From positions 13,682,798-13,746,797 of the forward strand of contig NC_083596.1 in NCBI RefSeq assembly GCF_027579695.1: a stretch of 64,000 nucleotides of DNA, read 5' to 3'. The notes beneath the pieces are model-generated. The model made no database searches. It saw only the letters and a program-made list of their open reading frames with translations, and was not told the DNA's origin. A program made the position numbers and the translations under genes. The DNA comes from Neoarius graeffei. Taxonomy: Eukaryota; Chordata; Actinopteri; Siluriformes; Ariidae. Shown in pieces: positions 8,340 to 63,803 of the stretch; the first letter of the stretch is position 1, and each line of letters opens with the position of its first letter.

Positions 8340-8572
8340 TTTGGATTTCGGGGTAGTTAAAAAGGGGTGGGAAATTTAAAAAAAAGTATTGTACTTCTTC
8401 CCACTCCTTTTTCGAACAATGTGCGGTGTATTGTAATGTATTAGCTCTTTATGTTATTTTATTTATTCTTTTTTTTGTCACTTTTTTCATTTTCTTTCTT
8501 TTGTATGTACAAATAGTTACATACATTTTTATACATGTTCGAAATAAATAAATTCATTCATTCATTCATTCA
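8340..8572 (+). mobile_element. LINE 3' end with (ATTC)n tail
   Basis: The sequence TTGTACTTCTTCCCACTCC, a T-rich stretch, then ACATGTTCGAAATAAATAAA followed by (ATTC)n is the 3' untranslated end of an L2/CR1-type LINE. No reverse transcriptase remains, so it is a 5'-truncated insertion. Confidence 0.75.
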
Positions 8573-8930
8573 GAATGCACGATACATCCCATCATTTGTT
8601 ACCTACAAAGATGACAATGCTGCATTTAAACAGCATCATATTGTGTTCTGTTCAGTAAATTCAGCATCTTGATCACTCAGATGAGAAAGATGTCAAAAAT
8701 GTCGCTTTGGCCCAATTTTCTTGATCTTCCTCAAAGTGTCTTTTTGCTGCATGATGATTGGTGTCGACCTCTTCGGTAGAGTTGTGGATGCATAATTGTT
8801 TTAGATCAGTTTGAACATGCAATTTAATTAGCTTATAGAGTTTGTGGCATTTTAGGTTTTAATTGGAAACTCAGAGGGACCTTCAGTGCTTTAGGTATTA
8901 ATTCAAGCTTATTTCTCTCTCTTTCCTCAG
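8573..8930. other. intron 5' of the flrt1 coding exon
   Basis: No transposon recognised. It ends in a pyrimidine tract (TTTCTCTCTCTTTCCTCAG, AG at 8929-8930) that makes a strong splice acceptor just before the flrt1 exon. Confidence 0.6.
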
Positions 8931-9079
8931 GCTGGCTGCCTTAGTCCTACTGTGGCTAAGCACTAAACTGCTCTGCAGCTTAAAAGGAGACCTACATTCT
9001 AGGTATCTGAAGTAGCTACACAGAAGAAAAGGGCACAAAATTAAGGAAACAAGAAAAGGAAAGGTTCGCCATTGGAATC
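8931..9079 (+). other. flrt1: flrt1 5' UTR in the coding exon
   Basis: About 149 bp between the predicted splice acceptor and the flrt1 start codon. Upstream non-coding exons probably lie further left but could not be identified. Confidence 0.6.
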
Positions 9080-11173
9080 ATGGCTCCTGAAGTCATGGCT
9101 GAGCTTCGTGATTGGCTATTTCTTCTCCTTCTGTGCCTCACGCTATTGGCCGAAGTGCTGCAGTGTGCTGCAAATGCCTCGCAAGGAATGGATACAGAGA
9201 GGGACATAGTGTGTCCCTCTGTGTGCCGCTGTGATGAAGACTTTATTTACTGCAATGACCGTGGTCTAAGTGCTATCCCACCACTCCCCCCATCAGCCTC
9301 CATTCTTTATCTTCAAAACAATCACATAGATAATGCAGGACTTCCCACATCCTTGGAGTACCTCACGACTGTGGAGGTTATATATCTCTATGATAATGAG
9401 CTGGATGACTTTCCCATGCACCTACCACCCTCATTACGGGAACTTCATCTCCAAGACAACAACATCCGGGTGTTACCACGGGCTGCATTAGCCAGGTTGC
9501 CTCTCCTGGAGAAGTTGCATTTAGATGACAACTCAGTGTCCACAGTTAGTATAGAAGACCAGGCTTTTGCAGACAATCCTCGTCTTCGTCTGCTCTTCCT
9601 TTCCAGAAACCACCTTTCTAGCATTCCCTCAGGGCTTCCAGCCTCACTTGAGGAGCTCCGCTTAGATGATAATCGTATCTCAACAATTCCCACGCATGCC
9701 TTCCGAGGTTTATCTTCTCTGCGCCGTCTTGTCTTGGATGGTAACCTTCTGGCCAATCAGCGCATTGCAGATGACACCTTCTCACGCCTCTCAAACCTCA
9801 CTGAACTGTCTTTAGTGCGGAACTCCCTTCAAACTCCACCTCTCAATTTACCTAGTGCACACCTGCAAAGACTCTCTCTCCAGGACAATGCCCTGATCCA
9901 CATGCCACGGGGCTCCCTTGATGGAATGCGTAGTCTTCAGAGGCTGGACCTTTCCGGGAACAACCTGACCACACTTCCCAGAGGCTTGTTCCGGGACTTG
10001 GAGAGCTTGGGGCAGTTGCTTGTGCGTGGCAACCCTTGGCACTGTGGATGCAATCTGCGCTGGCTGTACGACTGGCTGGAAGCCAAAGGGAACACTATTA
10101 CAGTCCGAGGACTAGCTTGCCAATCTCCAGAGCGAGTGCGCGACATGCCACTAAGGGAACTTACTAGCCAAATGGATGAGTGTGAATTGGCAGCTGCTGG
10201 AGGTGGGGGGATAGGTGGAGTGGGTTCACCAGGTGGGGGAGGTACTACTGGCAATAGAATGGGTGGAGCAGGAGTCAGTTCCACAACTCTGTCCCCTCCA
10301 CAGGGATCCCTGTTCACGCTGCGGTCCAAGCGACCAGGTCTGGGGTTTCCAGACAAAGGCTTGGACTACACACTTGGCAGCAGTGGTGTGGGCAAGAACC
10401 TGGCCCTGAATGTAAAGCCACTATCCCATGATAGCGTCAGGGTCACATGGAGTGTGGCTCAAACATCATCATCTTTCAGGCTTAGTTGGCTCCGTCTGGG
10501 GACTACTGCTGCAATGGGTTCCATTACTGAGACTCTAGTGAGGGGTGACCGAAGAGAGTATCTGCTTACTGCCCTCCAGCCAGCATCCAGCTACATCATC
10601 TGCATGGTGCCCCTAGCCTCTGGCACTGGGAACAAAGGCAGTATGTCTGGAAGGAACACAGACACAGATGAGGCTCCAGTGTGTGCAAAGGCTGAGACAT
10701 CCGATCCCAACCTGTCTGATGTTGACCAAGGGGAGAATCAGGGCTCGGAGCACATCACCTCACTTCCACTCGCTGGGATTATTGGTGGAGCCACTGCGCT
10801 AGTCTCTCTGACACTTATTCTTGGAATATTCTGCTGGTATGTTCATCGCTCCAGACGCTTTTCCTCAAGAGATCACTATAGCCGCAGTAGCTCACGCAAA
10901 AGCAAGCATTATGATGACTACATTGAATCAGGCACTAAAAAAGATACCACCATCCTGGAGATCCGAGGACCTGGATTCCAGATGACACCAATGGCTGCCA
11001 GAGAGACACTGCAGCCCAAGCCAGTACAGGAAGACTACATAATACACACAATCTTCCCTTCCAATGGCACAGGTCTATACAAACCGTCCCACCACACAAC
11101 TAATGCAGGCTATGGCACAAACCGTGGCTATAGAGAAGGAGGTATTCCAGATATAGATTACTCTTACACGTGA
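9080..11173 (+). CDS. flrt1: FLRT1, fibronectin leucine-rich transmembrane protein
   Basis: Single-exon gene of 697 codons for a type I membrane adhesion protein; FLRTs bind latrophilins and UNC5 through the LRRs and FGF receptors through the FNIII domain. Seen in order: signal peptide (about 1-31); LRRNT with C45, C49, C51, C58; about ten LRRs (75-318); LRRCT with C322, C324, C347, C368; a glycine-rich linker (372-398); FNIII (about 438-540); TM segment (562-588); a 109-residue tail ending [10 protein letters not shown]. Blocks [16 protein letters not shown] and ESGTKKD match FLRT1 better than FLRT2 or FLRT3. Sequons lie at N32, N239 and N295. The start at 9080 has A at -3; Met6 (9095) is also possible and aligns with the MDLRDWLFL of human FLRT1. 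It is slightly longer than the human protein, mainly through the linker. Fish may have two flrt1 copies; which this is cannot be told. Confidence 0.96.
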
Positions 11174-13420: not shown

Positions 13421-13740
13421 TTTAACATTTAATGTTTAAAAGATGGAAGCAAAATTAAATTCACCTGTCAAGTATATCTGGCTCGTCTGTCACTGTATTT
13501 GACATTACAACATAATAGAATGTTGGGCTTTTTTTTTTTTGTGGAAAGTGGAAATTGAACATGGTACATAGAAATTACAGGCCTGATCGCACTATTTTCA
13601 TGTTGCTGTTCCTCTTTTTTGTCAGATCATACTGTGTATGGTTATTGCTAATATCATAGCTCCTACTGAAAAAAACAAACAAAACATCTTTCTTTAGCAA
13701 AAGACTGCTCAATATTTTAATGATTACTATTATTCATATG
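13421..13740. other. no recognised feature
   Basis: AT-rich, with a T run near 13530. Confidence 0.4.
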
Positions 13741-14115
13741 GGGCGGCACGGTGGTGTAGTGGTTAGCGCTGTCGCCTCACAGCAAGAAGGTCCGGGTTCG
13801 AGCCCCGTGGCCGGCGAGGGCCTTTCTGTGCGGAGTTTGCATGTTCTCCCCGTGGGTTTCCTCCGGGTGCTCCGGTTTCCCCCACAGTCCAAAGACATGC
13901 AGGTTAGGTTAACTGGTGACTCTAAATTGACCGTAGGTGTGAATGTGAGTGTGAATGGTTGTCTGTGTCTATGTGTCAGCCCTGTGATGACCTGGCGACT
14001 TGTCCAGGGTGTACCCCGCCTTTCGCCCGTAGTCAGCTGGGATAGGCTCCAGCTTGCCTGCGACCCTGTAGAACAGGATAAAGCGGCTAGAGATAATGAG
14101 ATGAGATGAGATGAG
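13741..14115 (+). mobile_element. Mermaid-type V-SINE, full length
   Basis: Complete head and tail; GTAGAACAGGATAAAG variant with (ATGAG)n end. The V-core region lacks the eleven bases TGTCCGCGTGG present in most copies. No clear target duplication. Confidence 0.93.
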
Positions 14116-14310
14116 ACTAATTGGGGAAGCCATGGCCTAATGGTTAAAGAAACAGCTTTGGGACCAAAAGGTTGCTGGTTTGATTCCCTGGACTAGCAGG
14201 ATTGGCTTAAGTGCCCTTGAGCAAGGCACCTAACCCCCAACTGCTCTGGCAAGAGTGGTGGCGTACCTTGTGTCTGATTAGTCAAAGAAAAAACAATGAT
14301 GTGATTATCA
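14116..14310 (+). mobile_element. tRNA-derived SINE, other family, copy 1
   Basis: A box CATGGCCTAATGGTTAAAG and B box GGTTTGATTCC, followed by AGTGCCCTTGAGCAAGGCAC and CCCCCAACTGCTCTGG. It abuts the preceding Mermaid copy. A minus-strand relative lies at 61986-62175. Confidence 0.75.
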
Positions 14311-29335: not shown

Positions 29336-30516
29336 CAAACAGGTCAGAGAAAAAGTTGTGAAAAAGTATGGATCAGGGTTGGGTTATAAAAATATCCCAA
29401 ACTTTGAATATCCCAGGGAGCACCATTAAATCCATTATAGCAAAATGGAAAGAGTATGGCACCACTACAAACCTGACAAGAGAAGGCCACCCACCAAAAC
29501 TCACAGACCAGGCAAGGAGGACATTAATCAGAGATGCAACAAAGACACCAACGATAATGCTGACAGAGCTGCAAAGATCCACAGTGGAGATGGGAGTATC
29601 TGTCCATAGGACCACTTTAAGCCATACATTCCACAGAGCGGGGCTTTATGGAAGAGTGGCCAGAAAAATCACATTTGGAGTTTGCCCAACAGCATGCGGC
29701 AGACTCCCTGAACACATGGAAGAAGATTCTCTGGTCAGATGAGACAAAAATTGAACTTTTTGGCCATCATAGGCAATATCATGCGTGGCGCAAACCCAAC
29801 ACCCTGAGAACACCATCCCTACAGTGAAGCATGGTGGTGGCAGCATCATGCTGTGGGGATGTTTTCATCTGCAGGGACAGGAAAGCTGGTCGGGACTGAA
29901 GGAAAGATGGATGGCACTAAATACAGGACAGTTCTGGAGGAAAACCTGTTTGAGTCAGGCAGAGGTTTGAGACTGGGACGAAGGTTCACGGTCCAGCAGG
30001 ACAATGACCCTAAACATACTGCGAAAGCTACACTGGAGTGGTTTAAAGGGAAACATTTAAATGTCTTGGAATGGCCTAATCAAAGCCCAAACCTTAATCC
30101 AATTGAGACTCTGTGGCATAACTTGAAGATTGCTGTACACCAATGCAACCCATCTAACTTGAAGGAGTTGGAGCAGTTTTGCCTTGAGGAATGGACAAAA
30201 ATCCCAGTGGCTAGACGTGCTAAGCTAATAGAGACACACCCCAAGAGACTTGCAGCTGTAACTGTATCAGAAGGTGGCTCTATAAAGTATTGACTTTTTT
30301 TTTGGGGGGGGTACTTATGCACACTCCAGATTTCTGTTTTTTCATCTTAAATTATTGTTTGTGTCACAATAAAACAACAATGTGCACCTTTAAAGTGGTA
30401 GGCATGTTGTGTAAATCAAATGGTACTAACCCTCCAAAAATCCATTTTAATTCCAGCTTGCAATGCAACAAAACAGGACAAACACCAAGGGGGATGAATA
30501 CTTTTGCAAGACACTG
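29336..30516 (+). mobile_element. Tc1-like transposon, 5' truncated
   Basis: Right end CCAAGGGGGATGAATACTTT then TGCAAGACACTG (to 30516) plus TA matches the left end of the minus-strand copy at 36471. The left terminal repeat is missing; the copy starts inside the transposase 5' region. Confidence 0.88.
29368..30293 (+). pseudogene. Tc1-like transposase, frameshifted
   Basis: From 29368 the frame gives an HTH (ISQTLNIPGSTIKSIIAKW) and the linker LTREGHPPKLTDQARR up to GLYGRVARK. A small deletion near 29670 and further shifts near 29720-29780 and 29870 break it into pieces. [13 protein letters not shown] is readable near 29735, [20 protein letters not shown] from about 29806, and from about 29990 [17 protein letters not shown] with NPIETLWHNLK. 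All three DDE acidic residues can be found, with 34 residues between the second and third, but not in one frame. The enzyme is dead. Confidence 0.88.
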
Positions 30517-35201: not shown

Positions 35202-35847
35202 TTAGGACTACAGTTGCCATGATAACTTTAGGACTGCAGTTGTCATGAACAGTTTTGCATTCAAGTCTCTATTAATGAACAGTTGATAACTTAAAAAAAA
35301 TAGACTTTTATTTATAATCACGCTATCTGTTATCACCCAGATGAGGATGGGTTCCCTTTTGAGTCTGGTTTCTTCCTCATGTCGCCTGAGGAAGTTTTTT
35401 CTTGCTTCTGTCACTTCTGGCTTGCTCATTAGGGAAAAATTCATGTCTAAAATTGATATTTTTCTGTAAAGCTGCTTTGCGACAATATCTATTGTTAAAA
35501 GCGCTATACAAATAAAATCGATTTGACTTGCTCGTAATCTCTACTGCTGTCCATCTGACTGACCTCTTACCTGTGAGGTGCCATTAAGGCTAGTATTCTC
35601 TTTTATGCACAAAATGCTCTCATGTACACTTGTTTTACCTCAAACACACACTAGTTTGACTTGTCACATACACATAAAACACTAGCGATGTGAATCCGAG
35701 AAGGAAAATGGTAAATATTAAAGCAGTTGACAGTATTTTCAAGTGGGAGGCAAAGTGATAAATATGAAAGAATTTTATGCTTACTTGAAGGGTAAAATGG
35801 TGAGTGTAACTGCATTTTATTTAATTTTTTTAAATGGGTAGAATGGG

Positions 35848-36208
35848 GGCGGCACGGTGGTGTAGTGGTTAGCGCTGTCGCCTCACAGCAAGAAGGTCCT
35901 GGGTTCGAGCCCCGGGGCCGGCGAGGGCCTTTCTGTGCGGAGTTTGCATGTTCTCCCCGTGTCCGCGTGGGTTTCCTCCGGGTGCTCCGGTTTCCCCCAC
36001 AGTCCAAAGACATGCAGGTTAGGTTAACTGGTGACTCTAAATTGACCGTAGGTGTGAGTGTGAATGGTTGTCTGTGTCTATGTGTCAGCCCTGTGATGAC
36101 CTGGCGACTTGTCCAGGGTGTACCCCGCCTTTCGCCCGTAGTCAGCTGGGATAGGCTCCAGCTTGCCTGCGACCCTGTAGAAGGATAAAGCGGCTAGAGA
36201 TAATGAGA
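35848..36208 (+). mobile_element. Mermaid-type V-SINE, full length
   Basis: Perfect duplications GGGTAGAATGGG (35836-35847, 36209-36220), which are themselves part of a tandem-array unit. Variant GTAGAAGGATAAAG; the GTGAATGTGAGT repeat is one unit short. Confidence 0.96.
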
Positions 36209-36470: not shown

Positions 36471-37358
36471 CAGTGCCTTGCAAAAGTATTCATCCCCCTT
36501 GGTGTTTGTACTGTTTTGTTGCATTACAAGCTGGAATTAAAATGGATTTTGGGGGGGTTAGCACCATTTGATTTACACAACATGCCTACCACTTTAAAGG
36601 TGCACAGTGTTTTGTTTTGTTTTGTTTTTATTGTGACATGAACAATAATTAAGATGGAAAAAAAACCAAAACAGAAATCTCGAGTGTACATAGGTATTCG
36701 ATCCCCAAAGTCAATACTTCGTAGAGCCACCTTTTGCTGCAATTACAGCTGCAAGTCTCTTGGGCTATGTCTCTATTATCTTAGCACATCTAGCCACTGG
36801 GATTTTTGCCCATTCCTCAAGGCAAAACTGCTCCAACTCCTTCAAGTTAGATGGGTTGCATTGGTGTACAGCAATCTTCAAGTTATGCCACAGATTCTCA
36901 ATTGGATCGAGGTCTGGGCTTTGACTAGGGTATTCCAAGACATTTAAATGTTTCCCTTTAAACCACTCCAGTGTAGCTTTAGCAGTATGTTTAGGGTCAT
37001 TGTCCTGCTGGAACGTGAACCTTTGTCTCAGTCTCAAACCTCTGGCTGACTCAAACAGGTTTTCCTCCAGAATTGCCTTGTATTTAGTGCCATCCATCTT
37101 TCCTTCAGTCCTGACCAGCTTTCCTGTCCCTGCAGATGAAAAACATCCCCACAGCATGATGCTGCCACCACCATGCTTCACTGTAGGAATGGTATTCTCA
37201 GGGTGACGGGAAGTCTTGGGTTTGCGCCACACGTGACATTTTCCATGATGGCCAAAAAGTTCAATCTTAGTCTCACCTGACCAGAGAATCTTCTTCCATG
37301 TGTTCAGAGAGTCTGCCACATACTGCTGGGCAAACACCAAACGTGTTTTTTTTTTTCT
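36471..37358 (-). mobile_element. Tc1-like transposon, 5' truncated, minus strand
   Basis: Terminal repeat CAGTGCCTTGCAAAAGTATT at 36471 after TA. The copy ends around 37358 inside the transposase 5' half, at a T-run. Same family as 29336-30516. Confidence 0.88.
36765..37340 (-). pseudogene. Tc1-like transposase C-terminal two thirds
   Basis: Open minus-strand frame of 191 codons covering the catalytic domain: [16 protein letters not shown] (the consensus WSDE has become WSGE, so the first catalytic Asp is lost), [35 protein letters not shown] and [13 protein letters not shown]. The last Asp and Glu are kept, with 34 residues between them. The HTH domains are missing through 5' truncation. 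The C-terminus reads [10 protein letters not shown] and then a stop, where the usual tail would continue. Inactive on three counts. Confidence 0.88.
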
Positions 37359-37544
37359 TAATGCAAGAGGTAAAATTGTTCACATAAAAGCAATTATGCT
37401 TATGTAGTAAGTAAAATGGTAAATATTGAGGATTATCTCCACTTTTTGATCTCTCTGTATTTAGCACGTCACTACAGTGATGTGGCCACTCTGACTTCCA
37501 TCAGAGTTTCTGGGGGCAATTACAGTAGTGGTTTCCTGTTGCCT

Positions 37545-50519: not shown

Positions 50520-50531
50520 AGGTTCAATTTA

Positions 50532-50904
50532 GGGGCGGCACGGTGGTGTAGTGGTTAGCGCTGTCGCCTCATAGCAAGAAGGTCCTGGGTTCGAGCCCCG
50601 TGGCCGGCGAGGGCCTTTCTGTGCTGAGTTTGCATGTTCTCCCCGTGTCCGCGTGGGTTTCCTCCGGGTGCTCCGGTTTCCCCCACAGTCCAAAGACATG
50701 CAGGTTAGGTTAACTGGTGACTCTAAATTGACCGTAGGTGTGAATGTGAGTGTGAATGGTTGTCTGTGTCTATGTGTCAGCCCTGTGATGACCTGGCGAC
50801 TTGTCCAGGGTGTACCCCGCCTTTCGCCCGTAGTCAGCTGGGATAGGCTCCAGCTTGCCTGCGATCCTGTAGAACAGGATAAAGCGGCTAGAGATAATGA
50901 GATG
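50532..50904 (+). mobile_element. Mermaid-type V-SINE, full length
   Basis: Perfect 12-bp duplications AGGTTCAATTTA (50520-50531, 50905-50916). Variant GTAGAACAGG; CGATCCTGTAG change near the tail. Confidence 0.96.
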
Positions 50905-51189
50905 AGGTTCAATTTATGTAGCGCCTTTCTCAAAACCCAAGGTCACTTTACAAAAAAAAAAAAAAGTCCACCAAATAGAGGTCAGGATGTCATTCTAGTG
51001 GTGTAGCAGCCACAGTCCCATCAAAAGGTGCACGAAAACAAGTCCCACGCCGCCAGCAACATCGCTCGGAACACCACGCCATGGATCCACAAAGCAAGCA
51101 CAGAAGCACCACCATGCAGAGCGCTGGTATCTCCCAAACTGAGCCTGGGCCCGCCCATCCTAAGCGTGACGCAACACGAGGGCCTGTTG
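50905..51189 (-). mobile_element. LINE-like 3' tail and GC-rich repeat
   Basis: TTATGTAGCGCCTTTCTCAA then AACCCAAGGTCACTTTACAA is, in reverse, a common fish retroelement tail. It runs into a GC-rich part with GCAACATCGCTCGGAACACC. That motif recurs at 51748 (GCAACATTGCTCGGAACATC), which suggests the helicase-fragment element between has split or duplicated the unit. Confidence 0.5.
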
Positions 51190-51715
51190 CGAGCTTAGTC
51201 TGGCCAGGCAAGCTATCTACAGCTCTTCCAAGCTCCTGAAAAATCAGGAGCCAATCAACTTTGAGCATCTCCAACAGCCCTGGGTAGAGGCGTGTTCAAG
51301 GCAGTGACGTAGTAGAACTGCGACCGGAAGCCATAGATTGTTTACAGAATCTATGCCGGAAGCGCTTCATTCACTAGAAACATTATGAACATGGAGCAAG
51401 TTCTCATTGAAAACGGAGCAAAGAGCAGCCCTGGAGGTATTTATTGAAAGGAAGGACGTTTTCGCCTTGCTCCTGACCAGCTTCGGTAAGAGTTTAATCT
51501 ACCAGTTAGCCCCGTCGCGTCACATACGTCAGAGGAAAGAGTGATGTGATTGGTTTAAGCTTTGTCACAGCCTTTTCTGGCTTCGACCAGTAGCAAACTG
51601 AGGCATTTCAGGGAGGCGGGTCAGCCACGCACTTTGGGGAAACGGTTGGGCTTAATATCTTTGCCAGACCAAATGCTCGCAGAGCTTTGAAGTCACGTTA
51701 GCCAGACTATCCCAA
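51190..51715 (+). mobile_element. helicase-fragment element, diverged copy
   Basis: Borders TTAGTCTGGCCAGGCAAGC on the left and TTAGCCAGACTA on the right resemble the ends of the 891-bp element at 62589. Inside is a recognisable but changed RecQ-like N-terminal segment (51401-51517). Exact ends and target duplication could not be fixed. Confidence 0.5.
51401..51517 (+). pseudogene. RecQ-like helicase N-terminal fragment, diverged
   Basis: One frame reads FSLKTEQRAALEVFIERKD then VFALLLTSFGKSLIYQLAPS. It lines up with FSLKPEQEEALRSFLFKKDV and FAVLPTGYGKSLIYQLAPLV of the minus-strand copy at 63023-63373. The Walker A motif has changed from PTGYGKS to LTSFGKS, so nucleotide binding would be lost. 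No start codon in frame close upstream and the frame closes soon after. About 60 percent identity over 39 residues shows a shared origin and long divergence. Confidence 0.6.
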
Positions 51716-52978
51716 ACTGCCTGCACAGCCGCCGCGACGCCACCGAGCAACATTGCTCGGAACATCACGCCAAGCATTAAAGCACAGAGCGCTGGACAAC
51801 CACGATGTTAAAATGAGCAATGAGCTCACTGCAGTCCATAGCTAGGAGCACAGGCATCACCCACGGCGAACCAAGGCCTGGAGGGAACCGACGCCCAAAC
51901 TGGGTCCAGAGCTACGCCACAACTGGCGGACAAAACACTCAAACATCAAACTACACAAACACGCAGAAAAAAGAATAAAAAATGTAAAAAAAAAAAAAAA
52001 GTGAGAAAATAAAAAAAGCTCCGGTGAGAAGCGGCAGCCAGAATGCGCACGATGTACTCTCAACCGAAAACAGAAAGTAGGTTTTAAACTGGCTCAAAAA
52101 TATTTCTAGTCATTAAAATAGCCAGGGTTATGAACGCCCTCTGTCAGCCTCAATCGCGAACTTAGTGAGTCTCTCTCACATATACAATGTTGTATTGTAT
52201 TGTTTTGTAAGAGCATCATGTTTTAACATCAGCATATACTGGTATGGGTTCAGAAAAACAGCACATGACATGACCCACTTGAGATATGAATCTGTACCAT
52301 GTAGGTGTTTTTGGATGTTCTGATATTAAAGCTAGACTGCCTTTCAGATTTTTCAAGTGCAGGTCATAAAAAGAATTTTCCCCGACACTTGATTATATTT
52401 GTCTAGTGGACCGAAAGCTACCGAATTCGAATCACAGACTTCAAATTTGATTATTATTATTTTTTAAAAATGTAACAATTAATGGGCCACATGACCCTAA
52501 ATTCTCCGCTATTTTTTTTCCTGCTTCACCATGACCCAATTCAAGATACTATGTCATGCATGACATGGTGGGCTTTCCCTGTTCGTGCAAGGCATTGTGG
52601 GATACAAATTTGAAACAGGAGAGAAAAATGGAGGACGTGGGTGTGCGAATGAAACGTGAAAGACCGACTACGGAAAGCGAGAAGAAAAGACATTGTTATA
52701 TATGAAGGAAAGGAAACGCAGGACCAAACTAAAAAATATCGGCGGTCAGCGAGCACCTCGGTGTGATCAGCTGTTCATTTAGCAACAGAATGATGGAACG
52801 GTCAGTGCACGCTCAAAGGTAAACCTGCACATGCGCGCGCGTACACACATGGACTTCCTCTGTCTGCTTGACTGCGTGAAGCGAGCGATTTCATGCGCGT
52901 TATTTGCTGTGAATTCCCCTCAAATTAAAAAACTTCCCAGCCACAGAATGGCCTGTATTACAAAGATAAATATGTATC
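51716..52978. other. mixed repeat and unrecognised sequence
   Basis: To about 52075 it continues the GC-rich repeat; the rest is unassigned. A frame from 52629 (MEDVGVRMKRERPTTESEKK) is short and unknown. Confidence 0.4.
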
Positions 52979-56116: not shown

Positions 56117-57593
<1,477 letters not shown>

Positions 57594-62175: not shown

Positions 62176-62588
62176 TTCTTAAGTTGATTTCTAATCAACT
62201 GAAATTTGCTTTCTGTTGGGCTGCATTACACCACCATATTGCTGATTATTTTTCTAGAGCAGCATATTTTATTCCTCACTTAGGCCACACCAATTCGATT
62301 AGTTGGTCCTCGGAATCGCCGCTTGGAGAAAATGCAAAATGAAAGAAAAATTCTGAAGACTGCAGGTTGAGGTCACGTGACGTCGAAAACCAATCAAATC
62401 GCCCCTTTCACTTTAGATAAAGACTTGTGGAAGAAACATACCTGTGGAGGGGAATCCTGCAAAGCCTGTGTTGGTTAGGATATTCAGCGAACAGAAGCGT
62501 AAAATCTTTGACAGGCGTGTCGAAATTCAAGAGGGCACGTTGATGAATATTCATCTCTGTTAAATTGATCGCGGAGTTTGTCACATAG

Positions 62589-63479
62589 TAGCCTGGCAAG
62601 CCAGACTAAATGTGAATATTTAGTCTGGCCTCGATCCGTAGACATTTCCGAAGGGGGTGGGTGGAACAAACCGCTGTCTTTCAAACTGTCTCTGTGCGTA
62701 TAGGCCAACGCTCTGACCAATCAGCGCAACAGTGACTGTGACATAGTCAGAGCGACAGAAAGGAGTGGGGGAGACCTTGAAATAAACAATTTTTCAAAAT
62801 GCGTATTAATTAATAAACAGGTTCTAGATATTAAGAAGTTTGGAGATAATGACCACAAGTTTGGAGTCTGTACCACATACACTCTTCCCCCCCCCCCCCC
62901 AAGTGTTTTTCAAGGGTTTGCTTAAACTGTTTTTGAGAGTTTTTATTTAGTGGTGTTTGGTGAAATAATTTCCCTTAAATTTAAAATAACGGGAAAATAA
63001 GAAACAATCAAAAAGTAATGTTTCAAAGCTGTTTATTAATTCTTCGTACTGCACAAACTAGCCCCATCCTTTTGGCTACGAGCGGAGCCAGCTGGTAGAT
63101 CAGACTTTTGCCATAGCCGGTCGGCAAAACAGCGAAAACGTCCTTCTTGAAAAGGAATGAGCGGAGAGCCTCTTCCTGCTCAGGTTTCAACGAAAACTCC
63201 AAGTCTAATTCTTCTAAAACTGATTCCAAAGCGGAGTCAAACGCGCGCTGTTCACTAGCCGTAGCCATCTTTCCTGCTGCGCTTTCTCCAGCGTCGCACA
63301 GCTTTGTCGTCACTCCTGCAAAAGCCCGCCCAAAGAATCCAAACAAAAACCTTGCGTTGTGATTGGCGGGCACGATTTGATGCCTGGGGTGTTTTTGTTT
63401 ATATGGTGCGAGGCTAGACCCACTCGCTAGGCAAAAATATTTTTGCCCGCTAGGCGGGTGGGTCTAGTTTACTAGGCTA
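62589..63479 (-). mobile_element. 891-bp TIR element carrying a helicase fragment
   Basis: Flanked by 9-bp duplications GTCACATAG (62580-62588, 63480-63488). Ends TAGCCTGGCAAGCCAGAC and GTCTAGTTTACTAGGCTA are inverted repeats. Next to each end is a hairpin: CCAGACTAAAT with ATTTAGTCTGG on the left (about 62600-62628) and GGCAAAAATATTTTTGCC on the right (63430-63447). Nine-base duplications fit Mutator-like elements; an 8-bp hAT or P-type duplication is also possible if one base matches by chance. The encoded piece is not a transposase. Confidence 0.8.
63023..63373 (-). CDS. RecQ-like helicase N-terminal fragment inside a TIR element
   Basis: Minus-strand frame of 116 codons, with a second in-frame Met at codon 36 (63268, MATASEQRAF) as the more likely start. 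FSLKPEQEEALRSFL is a Q-motif-like segment and DVFAVLPTGYGKSLIYQLAP contains helicase motif I (Walker A, PTGxGKS), in the order and spacing of RecQ-family DNA helicases. After LVAKRMGL the similarity ends in VCAVRRINKQL and a stop; AATAAA overlaps the end of the frame. Motifs Ia to VI, including the DEAH box, are missing, so no helicase activity is possible. A dominant-negative or regulatory role is speculation. The frame is intact and is shared with the diverged copy at 51401, so it belongs to the element. It is either a captured host gene 5' part or the 5' end of a larger helicase-encoding transposon. Confidence 0.7.
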   Translation of the reverse strand: MPANHNARFLFGFFGRAFAGVTTKLCDAGESAAGKMATASEQRAFDSALESVLEELDLEFSLKPEQEEALRSFLFKKDVFAVLPTGYGKSLIYQLAPLVAKRMGLVCAVRRINKQL

Positions 63480-63803
63480 GTCACATAGGCTACCGTCCGC
63501 ATATCTGGTGAAACAGCGCAATCTTGTCGTTCTAATGCTTTTAGTCACAAGACTGTTGTTTCAGACTTTTATTTTCAATTATCCTTAATGCATACCGTAT
63601 GGGTGGAAATAAGATAAGCTATTAAAAGAGCCATATGAAATTTGTAACAATAATGTATTGTCTTTGTTTTGTTTCTCTATTATGAAAGCCCTCTATTTCC
63701 ACCGCTAACTTTACCATCAGAGCATTTTTTTTTTCCGCTCGCTCGCTTCATGTTTTTCCTGAAAAAAATCTGAGAACCAACTAATTAAATTGGTGTGGCC
63801 TTA

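Follow-up and report, generated by a model that had tools for sequence, protein, structure and literature searches.

The window, by which we mean the whole 64,000-nucleotide stretch of Neoarius graeffei DNA analysed here, contains an 891-bp element with a piece of a RecQ helicase gene inside it. We regard this element, e1 (62589..63479; minus strand, taken as the strand of the RecQ fragment), as a MITE-type element left by internal deletion of a cut-and-paste transposon that duplicates 9 bp of its target and encodes two convergent genes, one for a RecQ helicase and one for a DUF6589 protein, the latter being the putative transposase that would act on e1 in trans. We give this reading a probability of roughly nine in ten. 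On this account a MITE can contain a gene fragment without having captured a gene; DUF6589, to which Pfam assigns no function, acquires a concrete, testable candidate role; and a RecQ helicase is seen travelling, under purifying selection, inside a TIR transposon of a fish genome.

e1, its ends and its copies

The element lies between exact 9-bp target duplications, GTCACATAG, at 62580..62588 on the left and 63480..63488 on the right. This sequence occurs twice in the whole window, each time abutting an end of e1 exactly. The termini start TAGCCTGGC and finish ACTAGGCTA, an inverted match that is perfect over 6 bp and holds at 7/9. Scanning the window for TAG..CTA ends accompanied within 4 kb by an exact 9-bp repeat returned four places, three of which were pairs of a dispersed repeat with merely 3/9 matching ends; 50 shuffled windows, scanned as a control, yielded four places with ends matching at 6/9 or better, or 0.08 per window. 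Subterminal hairpins lie at 62600..62629, toward what we call the DUF6589-side end, and at 63414..63467, toward the RecQ-side end, and when both were folded as DNA none of 200 shuffles equalled either (z -4.78 and -4.61, respectively). A preliminary description of this DNA had reported inverted ends, a hairpin at each end and 9-bp duplications, and all of these stand.

The only coding content we recognised in e1 is an 81-aa open reading frame on the minus strand (63023..63268). RecQ exon 1, as far as Walker A, accounts for its first ~70 residues; the last ~11 are not helicase. The frame matches the DEAD helicase profile at 2.9e-6 and human RECQ5 at 4.9e-5, which bears out the earlier proposal that it is the start of a RecQ-type helicase to just past Walker A. 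Bacterial genomes held 302 relatives of the RecQ piece, of which the best 80 were kept; no fish contaminant was recognised among their alignments, and the best match (L001, 63%) lies in a contig that is bacterial by eye. Viral contigs searched for the RecQ piece, the end pattern and DUF6589 gave nothing confirmed. Helitrons are not known to have inverted ends or target duplications, and we rejected them as a home for e1, which has inverted ends and 9-bp duplications.

e1 is one copy of a young, high-copy family. The preliminary description had proposed a genome-wide search for its ends, and of the 2338 first-look candidates found in its own genome (2.34 Gb, 38 contigs) the best 40 were scored. 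All 40 match over the full length (1-891), with identities of 100% for the window copy and 96-98% for the rest. We examined 28 of the 40, namely, the window copy and 27 others: every one begins TAGCCTGGCAAG and ends TTTACTAGGCTA, with all 28 agreeing in the 12 bases at each terminus. The 9-bp duplication varies in sequence between copies and is exact in 25/28, 8/9 in two and 7/9 in one, against none of 756 mispaired flanks (the control) reaching 8/9. The copies stand 0.56-2.71% from their consensus, an age estimate that is biased low because the examined copies are the best-scoring ones. Short, with inverted ends, a duplication of constant length, many homogeneous copies and ends shared with a longer coding element, e1 fits the description of a MITE.

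The long element from which e1 derives

That longer coding element came from a genome search with the RecQ profile TIGR00614, which gave 44 matches, none above the family cut-off because exons were scored singly. Long stretches were fetched at four of these places: 10 kb at C20:6.25 Mb, 8 kb on C1, 7 kb on C2 and 10 kb at C20:1.56 Mb. The one long copy examined with both ends, C1:66384384-66393986, lies on a different contig from the window, is 9,603 bp in length, starts TAGGCTAGTAAACTAGACCC, ends GTCTGGCTTGCCAGGCTA and has an exact GGGAAGAGA duplication on both sides. A RecQ gene runs inward from one end and a DUF6589 gene inward from the other, on opposite strands. RecQ exon 1 comprises 159 codons to VDEVHLIYKW, followed by GTAAGAGG; the second exon is long, begins after TTTCAG and carries motifs III-VI and a Cys-rich stretch (by eye). 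The helicase motifs, again by eye, read LPTGYGKSLIYQL, IVSPLVALMEDQ, VVVDEVHLIYKW, LALTATA, YCRTL and QEVGRAGRDG. Motifs I-VI are present in both the C1 and C2 copies, with consensus-like donor and acceptor sites, and in C1 they occur in one gene, as expected of the RecQ helicase family. RecQ profile scores are 3e-17 (Helicase_C) and 3.1e-16 (DEAD); profile stretch 143-163, which falls between exons, was not identified.

The long copies on C20 (L139/L116/L123) and C2 (L141/L114/L125) share 92-99% identity with C1 where they align, and contain other insertions of ~0.9 to 1.6 kb, which sit between the two genes or among second-gene exons. No wholly intact long copy was found among C1, C20, C2 (fetched part) and L150, the second-lineage copy described below. 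The last DUF6589 exon has a frameshift and a stop in C1 and is open over 314 codons in C20; the C20 copy has GC at its exon 1 donor and LTETA instead of LTATA, and its far end is missing from the fetched stretch.

Positions 1-185 and 466-886 of the e1 consensus map to the two ends of the C1 element, at 97% and 95% identity and in the same polarity. In the window these correspond to 185 bp retained from the DUF6589-side end (62589..62773) and ~421 bp retained from the RecQ-side end (63059..63479, minus strand), the latter comprising the terminus, the leader and the start of exon 1. From terminus to breakpoint the RecQ piece and the long element are collinear. The breakpoint falls inside RecQ exon 1, and the idea that e1 ends at a splice site was dropped. 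Between the two retained parts is a filler (62774..63058), 285 bp long in the window copy and 280 bp in the consensus, which matches the fetched long copies C1 and C20 over 14 bp at most. Most of it is a 222-bp inverted-repeat segment (62814..63035) that lies between TTAA sites and whose inverted ends, TAAACAG/CTGTTTA, are 7 bp long. Genome matches continue through this segment in 40/40 scored e1 copies; it is probably an older insertion carried by the amplified e1 master, and looks like a piggyBac- or Kolobok-type MITE trapped in the master copy.

Six other shortened elements mapped on C1 (L119, L121, L129, L131, L136 and L137, the first two sharing one target sequence) have left breakpoints at 174-225 and right breakpoints at 8529-8731, a spread which tells us that internal deletion occurred repeatedly. 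The 9-bp duplications at eight mid-size loci are exact in six and 8 of 9 in two. L119/L121/L122 share one target sequence and L130/L136 another, and these look like duplicated genomic segments rather than separate insertions, so the eight loci amount to five insertions. The mid-size derivatives were all found via the RecQ exon, and RecQ-less ones would therefore have been missed.

The preliminary description had likened e1 to a Pack-MULE, with deletion of a helicase-encoding transposon as the alternative. It is the alternative that prospers, supported as it is by long copies with the same ends and motifs I-VI. Had a known TIR element (a Pack-MULE or Pack-TIR) picked up part of a host RecQ gene before multiplying, this would suit the 9-bp duplications, which fit Mutator-like elements, and the some 280 bp of e1 foreign to the long element; Pack-TIRs are, moreover, known in fish, with eight in zebrafish according to PMC8277862. 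We nevertheless give capture almost no credence, for the RecQ piece occupies the same place in the long element and is joined to that element's own terminus, and PMC8277862 also records no Pack-MULE in its animal reference genomes. The preliminary description had also suggested comparison with the host's RecQ genes. These we presumed from many exons clustered at one place on each of C6, C21 and C22, and compared exon by exon: against exon 1 of the transposon they reach 43% over 46 aa, 34% over 47 aa and 68% over 19 aa, whereas the other transposon lineage (below) reaches 59-61% over 155 aa. With host-like exons this distant and the piece collinear with a long transposon, we hold a captured host gene refuted as its source. 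e1 shares with Pack-MULEs the presence of gene pieces in non-autonomous copies, but its gene piece is the element's own. Like the animal Pack-TIRs (zebrafish and frog among others) it is a TIR element with gene sequence inside; unlike them, it holds transposon sequence at high copy, where PMC8277862 has non-TE host sequence, mostly single copy.

Might the N-terminal RecQ peptide of e1 itself have a use, such as regulating transposition in trans? The first 72 codons are without stops or indels in 25/28 e1 copies, and e1 and a second family, e2, both stop shortly after Walker A. Open frames are, however, to be expected in copies this young (0.56-2.71% from consensus), and in the e2 consensus (eight copies) the start ATG of its relatives is out of frame with the RecQ stretch. 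Changes in e1 fall 16, 7 and 15 by codon position, and 24/38 changed codons are nonsynonymous, two of them stops. Both families, too, were found by RecQ homology, so their retention of RecQ is partly ascertainment. A working peptide is highly unlikely.

Between lineages, RecQ exon 1 is under purifying selection (pS 0.74-0.79, pN 0.24-0.26; three comparisons, 154-156 codons), synonymous sites being near saturation, so these values give the direction and not the rate. Within the first lineage, exon 1 has pS 0.098 and pN 0.029-0.032, and exon 2 of C1 and C2 differs by 7 synonymous changes over 270 sites and 13 nonsynonymous over 936 (pS 0.026, pN 0.014). Codon counts for DUF6589 in three close copies show no consistent constraint: for example, piece B gives pS 0.016 and pN 0.047 between C1 and C20, and piece D gives pS 0.088 and pN 0.011 between C2 and C20 (piece A was matched in C1 only, and piece B was unmatched in C2). 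Close DUF6589 copies may have diverged largely after insertion.

e2 and a second lineage

The window also holds e2, a copy of a second, diverged non-autonomous family of the same kind (51141..51709, 569 bp; plus strand, that of its RecQ fragment), with target duplications TCCCAAACT at 51132..51140 on the left and 51710..51718 on the right. Neither e2 nor the 222-bp TTAA segment of e1 appeared in the preliminary description. The RecQ fragment of e2 (51320..51514, plus strand; tblastn 3.8e-13, 50% over 66 columns) is a damaged gene start that ends at QLAP and has one in-frame stop in the window copy. The genome search used 51196-51709 as query, and the best 40 of 2427 candidates, when scored, returned 40 full-length matches (the window copy at 100%, the others at 97-98%) and one partial match. 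Eight copies share 24 bases to the left of 51196, and we placed the left end where, within 110 bases, nine bases best match the right flank; this point is 55 bp left of 51196. Among these eight the 9-bp duplication is exact in five and 8/9 in two, with the same 55-bp offset in all seven; the remaining copy, L149, has no 9-bp duplication, its best match being 5/9 and elsewhere. A 62-bp direct repeat, 71% alike, flanks e2 at 51055-51116 and 51746-51807 (691 bp apart), and e2 may have landed in a sequence that is a repeat in its own right.

The RecQ-side end of e2 folds into a hairpin (no shuffle control); the hairpin at its other end is not significant (z -0.07). The leaders of e1 and e2, taking 51196-51709 as the bounds of e2, score 18 for similarity against a shuffle mean of 19.5, with 148/200 shuffles as good, and we therefore claim no shared promoter. 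The non-RecQ ends of e1 and e2 score 39 against a shuffle maximum of 35, which is weak alone.

Longer relatives bring e2 closer to a complete element. In L132 (1,133 bp) and L133 (951 bp), RecQ exon 1 extends to a DEVH or NEVH box. In L150 (C20:1563500-1573499), the non-RecQ end of e2 (91%) is joined to a DUF6589 gene and a RecQ gene, convergent as in C1. Relative to the first lineage, the L150 RecQ is 56-61% identical and its DUF6589 43-53% in 3/4 query pieces; the piece with GGD and FEDWHA had no match in L150 at E 1e-3. There is one stop in the L150 RecQ, and no RecQ-side end turned up within the 1.5 kb fetched upstream.

DUF6589 as the candidate transposase

DUF6589 (PF20231) is, in Pfam, a family of unknown function, and a text search of the literature for either name returned no describing publication. 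The last exon of the second gene matches the profile at 8.6e-24 in the C20 copy and 5.2e-25 in L150 (84.4 and 88.4 bits, against a Pfam cut-off of 27), and by eye includes a C2H2-like zinc finger; the upstream piece with GGD and FEDWHA, taken by itself, scores 21 bits, under that cut-off. We scanned five second-gene pieces with Pfam, four from the first lineage and one from L150 (the exons between pieces are not all identified). They gave DUF6589 or sub-threshold FBA_2, Wzy_C_2 and DUF3974. No DDE family appeared at E up to 1, a negative that is limited by HMMER filters, which drop most matches above ~0.1. Nor, in the same five pieces at the same threshold, was there a Mutator (MULE) or Kolobok transposase domain. 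A PDB sequence search with DUF6589 found nothing below E 0.58. By eye, the D of VGGD, the D of FEDWHA and the E of LDLHLEHL would be the candidates for the acidic triad of an RNase-H fold. The preliminary description had proposed looking in longer copies for helicase motifs and a transposase between the same ends: the motifs, I-VI, are there, and a transposase of a described type is absent from the pieces scanned, with DUF6589 in its place. Because it accompanies RecQ in both lineages and the five pieces hold no other transposase domain, DUF6589 is the best candidate and, judged from sequence, the likely transposase of e1 and the long element.

More tentatively, animal cut-and-paste elements with DUF6589 as transposase, 9-bp duplications and RecQ as a conserved partner could form an undescribed superfamily, e1 and e2 being its mass-amplified MITEs. 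We are somewhat less than evenly inclined to this. Alternatively, the 9.6-kb element belongs to a superfamily already described (divergent Mutator-like, KolobokH-like or a Repbase-only group such as IS4EU, which we take to be a Repbase name), with DUF6589 a passenger and the transposase too diverged or in an unscanned exon. The two accounts overlap on everything except the enzyme. To the credit of a passenger DUF6589, 9-bp duplications are typical of Mu (PMC2774946), RecQ accompanies KolobokH (PMC9587614), and the second gene has exons still to be placed as well as one piece without a match in L150. We consider it unlikely, since no DDE family turned up in the five pieces at E up to 1, two lineages whose DUF6589 sequences are 43-53% identical both retain it next to RecQ, and Kolobok duplicates TTAA where these elements duplicate 9 bp.

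KolobokH is the closest precedent we found for RecQ in a TIR transposon. As described in PMC9587614, it is a lineage of TIR DNA transposons with a RecQ helicase, reported only from fungi, and Kolobok-1_CCri also has its RecQ on the complementary strand. Kolobok elements, from the same source, have TTAA (4 bp) duplications and RR..YY termini. Ours starts TA and ends TA, and differs from KolobokH as described in its varied 9-bp duplications, its TAG..CTA ends, its fish genome and the presence of DUF6589 where a transposase is expected. With Mutator the likeness is in the 9-bp target duplications (for Mu, PMC2774946), found in e1, the long and mid-size elements and e2; unlike Mu, with ends of ~215 bp, the matching ends here are short and accompanied by hairpins. 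Pfam offers no function for PF20231; here it is part of a mobile element whose ends and duplications are defined. Literature searches by end sequences, RecQ with transposons, superfamily names and DUF6589 found no description of the element among the top-ranked papers.

How might such an element move? If DUF6589 is the transposase, the protein would bind the ends, possibly through the zinc finger of its last exon, and move e1 in trans, cutting the target with a 9-bp stagger. A transposon with its own RecQ raises the question of what part a helicase plays in cut-and-paste movement; it might unwind hairpin or repair intermediates, and could assist donor-site repair or replication of the element. 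The RecQ piece in e1 would be a relic, kept because it adjoins an end that the transposase needs.

One practical consequence is that gene models in such genomes that look like RecQ may belong to transposons. The rest of the window holds other frames, all identified by eye. A 720-aa open frame at 9011-11173 has leucine-rich repeats and a membrane segment and is FLRT-like, and those at 29808-30293, 36765-37379 and 56976-57383 resemble remnants of Tc1-type transposases. A recurrent SINE-like repeat (e.g. 13660-14192, 35651-36193 and 50529-51006) is open on both strands for at least 130 codons, a property that can mislead gene finders.
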